This document shows positions 24,258 to 41,670 of a DNA stretch of 56,260 nucleotides, piece by piece (the stretch's first letter is position 1; each line of letters opens with the position of its first letter). The notes under the pieces are model-generated. The model searched no databases, was not told the DNA's origin, and worked only from the letters and a program-made list of their open reading frames with translations. This DNA is from Pseudomonadota bacterium (lineage in GTDB: Bacteria; Pseudomonadota; Gammaproteobacteria; Burkholderiales; Burkholderiaceae_C). Where the stretch lies: positions 1 through 56,260 of the forward strand of contig JAJZUZ010000001.1 in assembly GCA_021845965.1 (NCBI GenBank). Reading direction: 5' to 3'. The position numbers and the translations under genes are program-made.

Positions 24258-25265
24258 GTGAAAGCCAAACCAGGAAAGGTGTCCGTGTCTTCCAAAGCCA
24301 AAACCGCTGCGGGCAAGGCCCAGCCGACCCCGAAGAAGGCTGCTGCCAAGCCGGCGGCCAAGGCCAAGCCGGCCGTGAAGACTGCCAAACCTGGGGTGGC
24401 CAAGAAAGCCGTGGCCAAGACGCCTGCCAAGAAGGCGGCGGTCAAGCCGGTGGCTTCCAAACCCAAGGCGGCCGCCAAGCCGGCGGTGAAGAAGGCGCCG
24501 GTCAAGGCCGCGGCCCCCAAGACCAAGGCGGTTGCCAAGCCCTCGGCCAAGGCCCCCGTCAAGGCGCCGGCGCCGGCCGCGGTGGTGGCCAAGCCCGTTG
24601 TGAGGCCAGCGCCGAAGGCCGAGCCCGTGAAGCCCGCGGCGCCGGTTGCGGCCCCCGAGGCGCCGGTGCGTACCAGCAAGGCGGCGACCCGCCTTGCCCA
24701 GTTGACTGTTCCCTCCATGGCCCAGACGGTGGCTTCCACCGCTGTCAAGGCCAGTTACACCCCCACCATGTCCCAGACCCTGATTGCCCCCCCTCTGCCC
24801 TCCGCCGTCAAGAAAGACCCGAAGCTGGCCAACAACTGGAAGACCAAGCCCGGCGAAGCGCTGACCGACGACGAGCTGATGGCCATGCCCGACAGCGAAT
24901 ACATGAACGACAAGCAGCTGGCCGCCTTCCGCATGCGCCTGCAGCAGCTCAAGCAGGACATCCTGAACAATGCCGGCGAGACCACCGAGCATCTGCGCGA
25001 AGAGACGGTGATCGTGCCGGATCCGGCCGACCGCGCCACCATCGAGGAAGAGCACGCCCTGGAGCTGCGCACGCGTGACCGCGAGCGCAAGCTGCTCAAG
25101 AAGATCGAGCAGTCCATCGCCCGCATCGATGCCGGCGACTACGGCTATTGCGACGAGACCGGCGAGCCCATCGGTGTCGGCCGGCTGCTGGCGCGACCCA
25201 CGGCCACGCTCTCGCTGGAAGCCCAGCAGCGGCGCGAGCTGAAGCAGAAGATGTTTGGAGACTGA
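24258..25265 (+). CDS. dksA: DksA with K/A/P-rich N-terminal tail and a one-cysteine finger
   Basis: RNA-polymerase-binding transcription factor that acts with ppGpp. The 335-residue protein is more than twice the usual length (~150). Residues 1 to ~140 are a lysine/alanine/proline-rich histone-H1-like tail (repeated KPAAK, KKA and KAPVK units). Residues ~190-335 are DksA. The coiled-coil tip aspartates are kept (Asp255 and Asp258 in DPADRA). The zinc finger has only the first cysteine (Cys298); the other three positions are Thr301, Ser319 and Ala322, so no zinc site of the E. coli type can form. The start is GTG 24258 with AGGAG seven bases before it. Confidence 0.95.
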   Translation: MKAKPGKVSVSSKAKTAAGKAQPTPKKAAAKPAAKAKPAVKTAKPGVAKKAVAKTPAKKAAVKPVASKPKAAAKPAVKKAPVKAAAPKTKAVAKPSAKAPVKAPAPAAVVAKPVVRPAPKAEPVKPAAPVAAPEAPVRTSKAATRLAQLTVPSMAQTVASTAVKASYTPTMSQTLIAPPLPSAVKKDPKLANNWKTKPGEALTDDELMAMPDSEYMNDKQLAAFRMRLQQLKQDILNNAGETTEHLREETVIVPDPADRATIEEEHALELRTRDRERKLLKKIEQSIARIDAGDYGYCDETGEPIGVGRLLARPTATLSLEAQQRRELKQKMFGD

Positions 25266-37306: not shown

Positions 37307-39192
37307 ATGTGAACGAACCTGACGATCCCAGCGACATCCCGACGCAGCCGCCCTACGAGGAGCCGGCGGAGCAGGTGTCGCTGCCGCCGTCCGAGCCCGC
37401 GGCGGAAGATGCGCCGCAGTTGCCGGCGCAAGAGCCGGTTCCAGCGTCTGCGCCGCCAGGGGCCACCCCACAGCCCGCGGCGCCCGGCAAGGGCGCTGCC
37501 CGTCCCTTGCCCGAGACCTTGACGGCCGCGCGCGATGCCGCCGCCTTTGTCGCGCAGCTCTTTGCCGAGGCCCACGTGCCGGAGCCGACACCCTCCGCCA
37601 CGGCCGAGCCCGGATCGGCGCCAGTGCAGGAGGCCGATGCGGGCGCCGACGAAGCGACAGAGGCGCAGGAGCCTGGGGCCGAGCCGGTGGTGTCGCCGCT
37701 GAAGGACCAGCACGTGCTGGTCCTGGGCCTGGGTGCTTCGGGGCTGGCCATGACGCGCTGGTGCGTGCGCCAGGGCGCGCGGGTGACGGTGGTCGACACG
37801 CGCGAGGCGCCGCCGCAGCTGGCGCAGCTGCGGGCCGAGTTGCCGCAGGTGACCTTCCGTGCCGGCGCCTTCGAGCCCGGCCTGATCGAGGGGCAGGACA
37901 TCCGCGCTGTCTTCAAGAGCCCGGGCCTGTCGCCAGCCGCCGTCGCGCCGCTCTGGCAGGCGGCGCAGGCCATCGGCCTGTGGGTCGGCGGCGAGCTGGA
38001 CCTGTTCGCGCGTGCGCTGCGCGACCTGCAGACCGAGCGCGGCTACGCGCCCAGGGTGCTTGCGGTCACCGGCACGAACGGCAAGACAACCACCACGGCG
38101 CTGACCGGCCAGCTGGTGGCGCAGGCCGGCAAGACGGTGGCGGTGGCGGGCAATATCGGCCCGAATCTGCTGGACGTGCTGACGCAACATCTCGATACCG
38201 GCACCCTGCCGGAGGTCTGGGTGCTGGAACTGTCGAGCTTCCAGCTCGAGGGCGCGCAGGGCTTTGAGCCCACCGCGGCCGTGGTGCTGAACGTCACGCA
38301 GGATCATCTGGATTGGCACGGCAGCATGGAGGCCTACGCGGCGGCCAAGGCGCGCATCTTCGGCAGCAAAGGGCTGCTGGTGCTCAACCGTGACGACCCG
38401 GCGGTGATGGCCATGCTGCCCGAGCCGGTGCGCGTCAAGCTGCAGAAGCCGCAGTGGCGCGACTACGTGAGCTTTGGCGCCGAGATGCCGCAGCGGCCGG
38501 GCGACTACGGCATCGAGATCGTCAACGGCATGGCCTGGCTGGTGCGGGCGATGGAAGCCGACGAGACGCAAAAACGCAAGCGCGGTGAAGAGGTGGAACT
38601 CTTCATCCAGCGGCTGATGCCGGCTGGTGCCCTGCGCATCCGCGGCCGCCACAATGCCACCAATGCACTCGCCGCCCTGGCACTGGCGCAGGCGGCCGGC
38701 TGCACGCTGGCCCCCATGCTCTATGGCCTGCGCGAATACCGCGGCGAGCCGCACCGTGTGGAGCCGGTCGCCATGGTGCGCGAGGTCGAATATTTCGACG
38801 ACAGCAAGGGCACCAATGTCGGCGCCACGGTGGCGGCGCTGACCGGGCTGGGCGCCGAGCGGCGGGTTGTCGTCATTCTCGGCGGTGACGGCAAGGGGCA
38901 GGACTTCGCGCCGCTCTATGGCCCGGTGCAGCGCTATGCGCGCGCCGTCGTGCTGATCGGCCGCGATGGGCCGGCCATCCGGGCCGCCGTACAGGGCACC
39001 GGCGTGCCCCTGTTCGACGCGGCCACCTTGCCCGAAGCGGTGGCTATTGCGCAGGCCCAGGCGCAGCCGGGCGATGCCGTACTGCTGTCACCGGCCTGTG
39101 CCAGCTTTGACATGTTCGACAACTACGAGCACCGCGCGCGTGTCTTCGTCGCAGCGGTCCAGGCGATCTCCGACGAGGGAGGGCTGGCGTGA
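37303..39192 (+). CDS. murD: UDP-MurNAc-L-Ala:D-Glu ligase MurD with long N-terminal extension
   Basis: Adds D-glutamate to UDP-MurNAc-L-Ala. The canonical enzyme begins near residue 133 with [17 protein letters not shown] and carries [59 protein letters not shown] and [16 protein letters not shown]. In front lie ~132 acidic, proline/alanine-rich residues, apparently disordered apart from a helix around 70-90. Total length is 629 against 438 in E. coli; a charged insert ([14 protein letters not shown]) adds more. The start is fixed by the four-base overlap with mraY. No in-frame start near residue 130 with a Shine-Dalgarno was seen. Confidence 0.95.
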
Positions 39193-40439
39193 CGGCCGTC
39201 GTGCAACGCATCCGTGGCTGGTTCGGCGGCGCGCCCGCGAGCGATGCCCTGCCGGTGCGCCTGGGGCCGCACGCCCTCGGGCGCAGCGGCAGCCAGCCGG
39301 TGCGGCTGTCGGATTTCGATCACGCGCTGATCTGGGTGGTGGTGGCCCTGCTGGCCTGGGGCCTGGTCATGGTGTACTCGGCCTCCATTGCCTTGCCGGA
39401 CAACCCCAAGTTCGCCCGCTACGCCCACACGCACTTCCTCAGCCGGCACCTGTTCTCGCTGGCGGTGGCCTTTGTGGCGGCGCTCATCGCCTTTCAGCTG
39501 CCGATGGCCAAGTGGGAGAAATACGCCCCCTGGCTGCTGGTGGTGGCGCTGCTCTTGCTGGTGGCGGTCTTGATCCCCGGGGTGGGCAAGGGCGTCAATG
39601 GCGCACGCCGCTGGATCTTCCTGGGCGTGATGAACTTCCAGCCCTCCGAGCTGGCCAAGCTGGCCGTGCTGCTCTACGCGGCCGACTACATGGTGCGCAA
39701 GATGGACGTGAAGGAACATTTCTTCCGTGCCGTCGCGCCCATGGGCGCCGCGGTGGCGGTGATCGGACTGCTGCTGCTGGCCGAACCCGACATGGGCGCT
39801 TTCATGGTGATCGCCGTGATCGCCATGGGTATCCTGTTCCTGGGCGGCGTGAACGCGCGCATGTTCTTCCTGATCGCCACCATCCTGCTGGTGGCCTTCG
39901 TGCTGATGATCGCCATGAGCGAGTGGCGGCGGGAACGCATCTTTGCCTACCTCAACCCCTGGGACGAGAAGGCCACCCTGGGCAAGGGTTACCAGCTCTC
40001 GCACTCGCTCATCGCCATCGGGCGCGGCCAGATTTTTGGCGTCGGGCTGGGGGGCAGCGTGGAGAAGCTGCACTGGCTGCCCGAAGCGCACACCGACTTC
40101 CTGCTCGCCGTCATCGGCGAGGAGTTCGGCCTGCTGGGGGTGCTCACCGTCATCGTGCTTTTCCTCTGGCTGACGCGCCGCGTCATGCACATTGGCCGCC
40201 AGGCCATTGCGCTGGACCGCGTCTTCGCCGGCCTGGTGGCGCAGGGCGTGGGCGTATGGATGGGTTTCCAGGCCTTCATCAACATGGGCGTGAACCTGGG
40301 CGCCCTGCCGACCAAGGGCCTGACCCTGCCTTTCATGAGCTACGGCGGTTCGGCCATCCTGATGAACATGGTGGCGGTGGCCATCGTGCTGCGGATTGAT
40401 TATGAAAACAGACAGCTCATGCACGGAGGCCGGGCATGA
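39189..40439 (+). CDS. ftsW: Septal peptidoglycan glycosyltransferase FtsW
   Basis: SEDS-family polymerase that works with FtsI at the septum. The 416-residue protein has an N-terminal ~45-residue cytoplasmic stretch, about ten membrane segments and the SEDS signatures: [80 protein letters not shown] (motif region only) and [15 protein letters not shown]. The start is GTG 39189 in a four-base overlap with murD. The last codons (QLMHGGRA) lie in the first copy of a tandem duplication that continues to murG. Confidence 0.96.
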
Positions 40440-40450
40440 GCTGTCTGTTT
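40406..40450 (+). promoter_or_regulatory. Perfect 16-bp hairpin at the ftsW stop, SD in the loop
   Basis: AAACAGACAGCTCATG at 40406-40421 is the exact reverse complement of CATGAGCTGTCTGTTT at 40435-40450. The 13-base loop contains GGAGG, and the 3' arm contains the ftsW TGA and the next ATG (40436). CTGTTT at 40445-40450 can instead pair with AAACAG at 40456-40461, which gives a mutually exclusive structure. Confidence 0.65.
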
Positions 40451-40614
40451 CACCAAAACAGGGCACAGCGCGCAGCGCGGCATGACGCGGCACGCGGCGT
40501 GGCTCATGCACGGAGGCCGGACATGAGTTGTCTGTTTCAACAGAACCGGCACGGCGCGCAGCGCTGCAGGGTGCGGCACGCGCCATGGCTGATGCATGGG
40601 GGGCGCTCATGAGC
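40416..40614 (+). repeat. Imperfect tandem duplication (87-bp period) at the ftsW/murG border
   Basis: Unit 1 is 40416-40502 and unit 2 is 40503-40588; a partial third copy begins at 40589. The first 37 bases of units 1 and 2 differ at two positions. Each copy carries a (C)TCATGCA...GGAGG-like...ATGAG module, so start sites occur at 40436, 40523 and 40609 (murG). Confidence 0.85.
40436..40612 (+). CDS. 58-codon ORF of two 29-residue repeats between ftsW and murG
   Basis: Starts with an ATG overlapping the ftsW stop (ATGA) and ends with a TGA overlapping the murG ATG (ATGA). The product is two 29-residue repeats beginning [16 protein letters not shown] and [16 protein letters not shown]. It is basic, with Arg/His/Cys, and ends LMHGGRS, which echoes the FtsW tail LMHGGRA. 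It appears to have arisen by duplication of the ftsW-murG junction. GGAGG lies before each internal ATG. A real peptide function is unproven; a role in passing ribosomes to murG, or in tuning MurG level, is plausible. Confidence 0.5.
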
Positions 40615-41670
40615 AAGTGCGCACTCGTGATGGCCGGGGGCACGGGGGGGCACATCTTCCCGGGGCTAGCCGTCGCCGAGGCCTTGCGGGCAAAAGGCTG
40701 GCGCGTGCACTGGCTGGGCAACGCCCGGGGCATGGAGGGCAAGCTGGTGCCGCCGCGCGGCTTTGCCTTCGAGAGCATCGAATTCGGTGGTGTGCGCGGC
40801 AAGGGGCCGCTCACACTGGCCCTGCTGCCGCTGCGTCTGCTCAAGGCCTTCTGGCAGAGCCTCCGCGTGGTGCGACGGGTGAGGCCGGATGTGGTGATCG
40901 GCCTGGGCGGTTACATCACCTTCCCGGGCGGCCTGATGGGCGTGCTGCTGGGCAAGCCGCTGGTGTTGCACGAGCAGAACTCTGTCGCCGGCCTGGCCAA
41001 CAAGGTACTGGCCGGTGTGGCCGATCGCGTGTTCACGGCCTTCCCCGATGTGTTGAAAAAAGCGCGCTGGGTGGGCAATCCCCTGCGAGCCGCGTTCCTA
41101 CAGCAGGACGTACCGGCGGCGCGCTTTGCCGGCCGCAGCGGGCCGCTGCGTCTGCTGGTGGTGGGGGGCAGCCTCGGCGCGAAAGCCCTGAACGAGGTCG
41201 TGCCGCGCGCCCTGGCTCTGATCCCGGTCGAGCAGCGGCCCCAGGTGCTGCACCAGAGCGGCGCGGCACAGATCGATGCGCTGCGGGCGAACTACCAGGC
41301 GGCCGGCGTCGACGCGGAGCTCACGCCTTTCATCGAGGACACCGCCTCCGCCTTTGCCGACGCGGACCTGATCGTCTGCCGCGCCGGTGCCAGCACGGTG
41401 ACGGAAATTGCCGCCGTGGGCGCCGCGGCCATCTTCGTGCCCTTTCCCGCCGCGGTGGACGACCACCAGACGACCAACGCCCGCTTCCTGGTCGACCGCG
41501 GTGCCGGCCTGCTGCTGCCCCAGCAGGACATGACGCCGGAACGGCTGGCGCGCCTGCTGCAGAAGGCCGACCGCAACACGCTGCTGCAGTGGGCCCACCA
41601 GGCACGCCAGCTGGCCAGGACGGACGCCACCGATCAGGTGGCTGCCGCATGCGAGGAGCTCGCATCATGA
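40609..41670 (+). CDS. murG: Lipid II synthase (GlcNAc transferase) MurG
   Basis: Peripheral membrane GT28 enzyme that adds GlcNAc to lipid I. The 353-residue protein has the first glycine loop [57 protein letters not shown], and the nucleotide-sugar site [15 protein letters not shown] and [14 protein letters not shown]. Length matches the family. ATG 40609 is chosen because it starts right before the glycine loop and has GGGGGG five bases upstream; frames open further upstream run through the tandem duplication. The stop overlaps murC by four bases. Confidence 0.96.

Follow-up and report, generated by a model that had tools for sequence, protein, structure and literature searches.

Organization of the ftsW/murG junction

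The genes ftsW and murG usually meet in a plain ATGA overlap, as the initial annotation of this region had assumed and as is seen in plain relatives (e.g., L005 and L008). In the 56,260-nucleotide stretch of Burkholderiales DNA analyzed here (the window), a tandem repeat lies between these two genes and forms a short open reading frame of its own. This organization raises the questions of where the repeat came from and what keeps it at this position. The features of the junction are listed below.

39189–40439, + strand: ftsW, with a putative start (open reading frame list, tblastn to relatives)
40404–40421, + strand: arm A, GAAAACAGACAGCTCATG, the 3' end of ftsW and the target sequence (sequence, arm comparison)
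40425–40429, + strand: Shine-Dalgarno (SD) sequence GGAGG of the first start module, in the hairpin loop (sequence)
40436–40522, + strand: unit 1, 87 bp (sequence, TRF, relatives)
40436–40451, + strand: arm A', reverse-complementary to A apart from a single bulged A
40455–40463, + strand: arm A'', the start of a direct copy of A
40502–40522, + strand: ftsW tail repeated in direct orientation, containing the second SD (40512–40516)
40523–40608, + strand: unit 2, 86 bp, with its parts ordered as in unit 1
40436–40612, + strand: mini-ORF of 58 codons, with an ATGA overlap with ftsW and with murG
40609–41670, + strand: murG (open reading frame list, relatives)

Arm A and the first SD-ATGA module lie within the last 36 nt of ftsW, and the two units together span 40436–40608. 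Unit 1 consists of the ATGA start, the inverted arm A', a short link, A'', two GC-rich hairpins, and the copy of the ftsW tail, such that A' has two possible partners (A or A''). Unit 2 ends in an SD-like G run ahead of murG. The TRF array at 40415–40614 (period 86, 2.3 copies, 82% matches) has a score of 267, the highest in the window. A second tandem repeat in the window is located at 24429–24541 (period 60, 1.9 copies, score 156).

The three start modules recognized in the initial annotation are all present, with ATG at 40436, 40523, and 40609, each within ATGA and each preceded by an SD sequence (GGAGG in the first two cases, the G run in the third). The stop codon of ftsW overlaps ATG 40436 and that of the mini-ORF overlaps ATG 40609, and stop/start overlaps are found along the chain; ATG 40523 is in frame, inside the mini-ORF. 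The uninterrupted 58-codon frame with an ATGA overlap at both ends was confirmed by the open reading frame list. The perfect 16-bp hairpin (40406–40421/40435–40450) with GGAGG in its loop and the alternative pairing CTGTTT/AAACAG are also present, and both recur in relatives. The tandem repeat was likewise borne out by TRF and by the relatives, but the two units are not both 87 bases long, the spacings being 87 and 86. The reading of the frame as two 29-residue repeats was not upheld: the two halves are alike only over about the first eight residues (MSCLFHQN and MSCLFQQN) and differ after about residue 9 because one extra base shifts the frame of unit 1. This same base joins unit 1 in frame to unit 2.

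Distribution of the units among relatives

Relatives were sampled through murG in 26 genomes of the genus and through FtsW at 80 named loci. Among 111 loci, three of which are the window itself, 105 had both genes readable and provided 89 distinct junction strings. A hairpin-insert pattern picked 23 of these 89, which have one to three units each, against none at plain junctions. The ATGA-to-ATGA distance in the 23 is 86, 83, 80, or 77 for final units and 87, 84, 81, 86, or 83 for earlier units. The exceptions are L053 (which contains an N run), L056 (in which a second, unrelated insert follows), and L074 (in which the next start is TTGA, outside the site pattern). Filled and plain junctions are found side by side in relatives at 91–92% FtsW identity.

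For a wider survey, a covariance model of this short form together with its ftsW arm (R1) was run on 399 genomes of the family. R1 has matches at E ≤ 1e-3 in at least 82 of these genomes and strong matches (E ≤ 1e-8) in at least 47. The place fetched from each of the 47 genomes is at ftsW/murG in every case, some being other inserts behind the same arms and not short forms. Two of them are split by contig ends, namely G165 (ftsW on L130, murG on L142) and G002, for which L161, beside murG, was taken and the best-scoring place sits at another contig end. Among 20 weaker R1 places fetched, 14 are at ftsW/murG (two of these plain) and six are elsewhere; L160 is a seventh weak place away from this junction. 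Across the order, R1 matches at E ≤ 1e-5 were found in at least seven of 399 genomes, and the five of these outside the family have their match at ftsW/murG, with a very short insert in L185. The genome counts for R1 (family and order) and for the second model described below (R2; order and class) are lower bounds because stricter filters were used and nine to 32 candidates were scored per genome; the E-values of both models are rough (short calibration).

Pooling of the junctions from the genus and FtsW sampling with those from R1 places gave 148 distinct strings, comprising 48 with the short form, 47 with other inserts, and 53 plain. Other repeats occupy the same site in L013/L033, L043, L047, L068, L073, L084, L095, L108, L109, and L138, and several of these are in frame with murG and would extend its product N-terminally; the site therefore accepts many kinds of insert. 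In other families, the ftsW/murG junction has two tandem copies of an unrelated unit (L227) or three tandem copies of an R2-type unit (L242). A search of a plasmid collection for the repeat gave no match, and searches of the open-access literature yielded no description of an insert between ftsW and murG, nor of a Burkholderiales palindromic repeat that copies its target.

Arms that match the host's own ftsW

In the 48 distinct short-form junctions, A' is the reverse complement of each host's own ftsW 3' end. Among the 1056 cells of the A:A' helix, 964 are Watson-Crick pairs, 48 are G-U, and 44 are unpaired. The variable columns 7–14 have 370 of 384 cells paired, with six G-U (L100 contains an N), and column 12 includes all four Watson-Crick types. 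When arms were swapped between rows in 1000 shuffles, a mean of 263 and a maximum of 286 of the 384 cells were paired. Because R1 rewards pairing and contributed 25 of the 48 junctions, these were also split by source. The 23 junctions from the genus and FtsW sampling, which were not chosen by R1, have 179 of 184 cells paired (shuffled mean 139, maximum 153), and the 25 R1-derived junctions have 191 of 200 (shuffled mean 130, maximum 149). The ftsW residues at the arm sites vary between species, and A' follows this variation. In L048 and L139 the arms contain mismatches, as if one arm had been left behind after a change.

Mapped onto a tree of FtsW proteins, the pair states require a minimum of 75 changes. 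One parsimony reconstruction, for which there is no confidence range, has 55 double Watson-Crick changes and 14 one-sided changes, the rest being two-sided with a non-pair; related junctions in these counts are not independent. In an alignment of 23 rows, 95.8% of cells are paired in the A:A' helix and 91.8% in the A':A'' helix; two-sided changes affect eight of 22 pairs in the former and four of nine in the latter (mean of the shuffles for the latter, 3.0). Both helices were derived from the same 23 sequences that were scored. Further pair types in this alignment show no excess over shuffles (22 vs. 24.4). Given the small number of intermediates, copying, either at insertion or by later template switching, would explain the pairing better than slow compensation, and the likeness of the arms may be read as a sign of copying, with strong selection on RNA as the alternative.

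Such selection would be expected for a cis-regulatory leader, in which A:A' and A':A'' would be competing RNA helices and the short cistron would meter the translation of MurG under compensatory selection. This explanation would account for the covariation of both helices, the inclusion of the SD and the ATG in the hairpin, the preserved frame, and the single architecture of the short form across many genera. We nevertheless consider it rather unlikely, given that the form is patchy among close relatives, that the predominance of double over one-sided changes and the rarity of G-U pairs are unlike slow compensation, that L048 and L139 tolerate mismatches, and that the arm layout recurs at unrelated loci (see below). 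Furthermore, window positions 40300–40750 and seven relatives have no match at or above the gathering score of any Rfam family. A known Rfam RNA was accordingly rejected as a candidate for these sequences, the only matches being to miRNAs far below gathering.

A dispersed core with the same layout

At ftsW/murG there is also a long form, which consists of A', GGCGNAGGCTNAY, one or two hairpins, GGCCGNAGCC, and a direct copy of all or part of the ftsW tail. It was found in the family (L147, L154, and L167) and in other families (L182, L183, L186, L230, L238, L242, and L243). A model of the core of this long form (R2) has matches at E ≤ 1e-3 in at least 119 of 399 genomes across the order, many of them at several places. 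The genome of the window has 11 R2 matches, and four other genomes have 12, 18, 56 (G461), and 20. In 140 genomes of the class, among the candidates scored, R2 at E ≤ 1e-4 matches only the window's own genome and, weakly, G919 (2.9e-5). Within the 56-kb window, its insert included, R2 has no match at E ≤ 0.01.

The R2 core is therefore a palindromic repeat with several copies per genome, and the short form from the window does not show such dispersal. For the short-form motif GTTTCNNCAAAAC, no dispersal was visible, the best inverted-arm score being 8 among the 20 loci examined out of 24 off-target loci fetched; in G013, matches to this motif exceed the control (11 vs. 3). The exact core pattern TGTTTCGGCGNAGNCT was rejected as a high-copy repeat, with one to five matches per genome. 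Depending on the genome, its matches do or do not exceed those of the reversed control, and dispersal is visible only with R2. The exact core pattern is also present in 36 stretches of viral contigs (L360–L395), which could be prophage or host DNA.

To characterize the flanks, 57 R2 loci were fetched and 53 were kept after four cut by contig ends were dropped; nine of the 53 are at ftsW/murG, and several of these nine belong to the R2 training set. The stretch preceding the core can pair with sequence a little farther upstream (mean complementarity score 9.8, vs. 6.4 with the arms of other loci). With short loops allowed, 39 of the 53 have a stem score of at least 9 and 23 have a direct-copy score of at least 8. 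Among the 44 loci away from ftsW/murG with full flanks, some of which are orthologous or tandem copies of each other, an A:A' stem of at least 9 is present in 31 (5.3% of 865 control draws), a stem of at least 11 in the same layout in 25 (0.3% of control draws), and a direct copy scoring at least 8 in 18 (2.1% of control draws). Conversely, 13 of the 44 are without a stem of 9 and 26 are without a direct copy of 8.

Two of these elements, the clearest cases away from ftsW/murG, are located in frame within protein-coding genes. In L319, at about 1490–1620, an R2 element in an RND efflux-pump family gene has the order GAAAACATCTATCGCCATC, its inverted copy, the core, and a near-direct copy. The encoded protein has 37 residues where the best solved homolog has three, with residues 14–422 and 460–951 aligning to one RND chain at 15–424 and 428–925, and arm A' lies in the residues absent from the aligned homolog. 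The element adds about 34 residues with a duplicated NIYRHRE. In L309, at about 1490–1600, an R2 element separates the first domain from the middle one in a Mur ligase gene, with Mur ligase domains at 4–100 and 140–347 on either side; its inverted copy is clear and its direct copy is unclear. In the window's own genome, three tandem R2 copies with spacings of 95 and 99 are found at C235:11080–11349 (L311/L315), behind an apparent gene end; L318 (G021) seems to be the corresponding locus. L302 and L308, from two genomes of the genus, contain R2 copies with arms GAAAATCGCCTGCACG, and in both the copy seems to lie at the 3' terminus of one common gene.

REP elements are characterized by a GTAG or CGTC tag and a RAYT transposase gene. 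REP/BIME sequences are described as dispersed GC-rich hairpins that are at times in tandem (PMC2817692); the arms reported here differ from these in being locus-specific. Rickettsia palindromic elements (RPEs) are short palindromic repeats tolerated in frame inside protein genes (PMC2229807), and the R2 copies in L319 and L309 resemble them in this respect. The RPEs outlined in that paper have terminal inverted repeats of 12 bp, whereas the outer arms of the elements analyzed here match the local target and differ between loci, and terminal inverted repeats belonging to the element itself were not found. The YPAL/RU-2 elements of Yersinia and Erwinia are, according to the same source, not A+T rich; they contain inverted repeats internally, duplicate 3 to 26 bp of target sequence, and occupy targets that span or adjoin dyad symmetry (PMC2229807). 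The direct copies in 18 of the 44 loci and the dyad at ftsW/murG may correspond to these features. YPAL/RU-2 elements differ in belonging to another host group, and the passages on them in PMC2229807 mention no inverted target copy.

Target preference and local origin

The short form is associated with particular sequences at the end of ftsW. In the genus and FtsW sampling, GAAAAY is present in ftsW at 23 of 23 short-form junctions and at 17 of 50 plain ones (Fisher p = 1.7e-8, uncorrected for kinship); the corresponding counts for the pooled junctions are 46 of 48 and 18 of 53. A native palindrome around ATGA with 10 or 11 of 11 pairs is found at 44 of 48 short-form junctions and 13 of 53 plain ones, with R1, the source of 25 of the 48, favoring both GAAAAY and this palindrome. 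This bias fits a preferred target, although part of it may be a consequence of the insert. In further families (L275, L282, L288, and L290), the best or a strong R2 match is at ftsW/murG, which suggests that the junction is a recurrent target.

The palindrome is also what a purely local origin would start from, with slippage and template switching on the native ATGA palindrome and quasipalindrome correction producing the insert without any mobile core. Template switching is a known cause of likeness between the arms of inverted repeats (PMC7202029, PMC8604942), and the short form is without visible dispersal. This explanation appears unlikely to us, as it leaves aside the conserved non-templated link (NNC AAAA) and the twin hairpins common to several genera, and the long forms at the same site contain the dispersed core. 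The simple local duplication proposed in the initial annotation was likewise not supported, given that A' is a copy of the end of the host's own ftsW and that a core related to the insert is found dispersed in genomes.

Reading frame and peptide

An ATGA overlap provides translational coupling by termination-reinitiation, at least in the systems covered by PMC6728339 and PMC10666635. The stop-start overlaps that link ftsW, the mini-ORF, and murG are of this kind, with the difference that a single junction here is a chain of overlaps with putatively translated spacers. The relay was examined in 95 distinct inserts with at least 45 nt between the ftsW-overlapping start and murG, many of which share ancestry, under a lenient rule that accepts ATG, GTG, and TTG at several offsets. 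In agreement with the earlier suggestion that continuous translation is kept, 92 of the 95 pass, 82 by a relay and 10 by an in-frame fusion into murG, and L053 passes despite its internal N run. The failures are L027, L071, and L184, that of L071 being due only to an overlap (stop 5 nt inside murG) absent from the list of the rule. Frame-shifted controls, with 1 or 2 nt deleted behind the start, pass in 57 and 68 of 95 cases, which are high numbers because GC-rich frames are often open. The bias toward passing forms is nevertheless clear. The passing inserts include unrelated repeats (L013, L043, L073, L084, L095, L108, and L109), and the constraint therefore belongs to the site. What is under selection appears to be the stop-start relay leading into murG and not the peptide.

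Evidence on the peptide itself comes from codons 10–22 of eight comparable units, where differences at positions 1, 2, and 3 number 86, 45, and 34, and 128 codon pairs are non-synonymous and 13 synonymous. The third positions of these middle codons vary no more than the others, and a conserved peptide was rejected; the suggestion of a selected repeat peptide in the initial annotation is not sustained. In the A' part the third positions vary most (82 of 130), as they do in the tail part (76 of 110), which would be expected of copied ftsW sequence. A functional small protein of 58 residues would agree with the open frame that overlaps both neighbors and with the recurrence of MSCLF.QN, and is nevertheless very improbable, given that the middle has no third-position excess, MSCLF is the product of inverted ftsW codons, the two units use different frames beyond the start, the long forms are open in different frames by lineage, and the mini-ORF matches no Pfam family at E ≤ 0.01. 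The palindromes in mitochondrial genes of Nematomorpha are perfect inverted repeats in coding sequences in which both arms encode conserved protein parts (PMC6649704); the insert at ftsW/murG differs in adding extra, unconserved residues.

An assembly artefact was raised by the metagenome-assembled draft state of the window genome (281 contigs, 83% complete) and is hardly credible, because L011 has the same 87+86 pair in a genome (G013) listed as one contig, and such arrays are also present in records not marked as MAGs (e.g., L105 and L106). Chance is excluded by the occurrence of the same architecture in dozens of genomes.

Proposed origin and implications

The explanation that we favor, with somewhat better than even confidence, is that the repeat is a two-unit array of a structured insertion element whose arms are templated by the target and which is kept in relay-preserving forms. 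Two copies of arm A, the ftsW 3' end, would be made on insertion: an inverted one (A') that immediately follows ATGA and a direct one (A'' and the tail). The product would be A, a loop with the SD, A', the link and hairpins, the direct copy, and ATGA. Fold-back synthesis on A is the probable first step, with template switching at AAAA/TTTT microhomology then leading into the hairpin core and back out of it, and units may later multiply or vanish through slippage between the direct repeats. If the translation of murG depends on ribosomes coming from ftsW, as we propose, nearly only relay or in-frame fusion forms would persist for this reason, and the mini-ORF would be a translated spacer instead of a functional peptide. 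The additional relay steps could conceivably tune MurG, as could the alternative RNA helices. The short form may descend from the dispersed core, to which it is linked by site, arms, and layout. This putative descent rests on the long forms at the same site, because the window insert has no R2 match and GTTTCNNCAAAAC has no visible dispersal.

A broader and more tentative interpretation, which we would put at somewhat less than even, is that these elements form a class of mobile repeats without fixed ends, in which fold-back writes inverted and direct copies of the target around a hairpin core, and which at ftsW/murG have repeatedly become relay cistrons before an essential gene. If true, tiny DNA elements would spread without fixed ends, with the target supplying the arms, and near-perfect covariation of helix arms across species could come from templating and not from selection on RNA structure. 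The junctions with zero, one, two, or three units before murG provide a natural series for measuring the coupling of two essential cell-wall genes.
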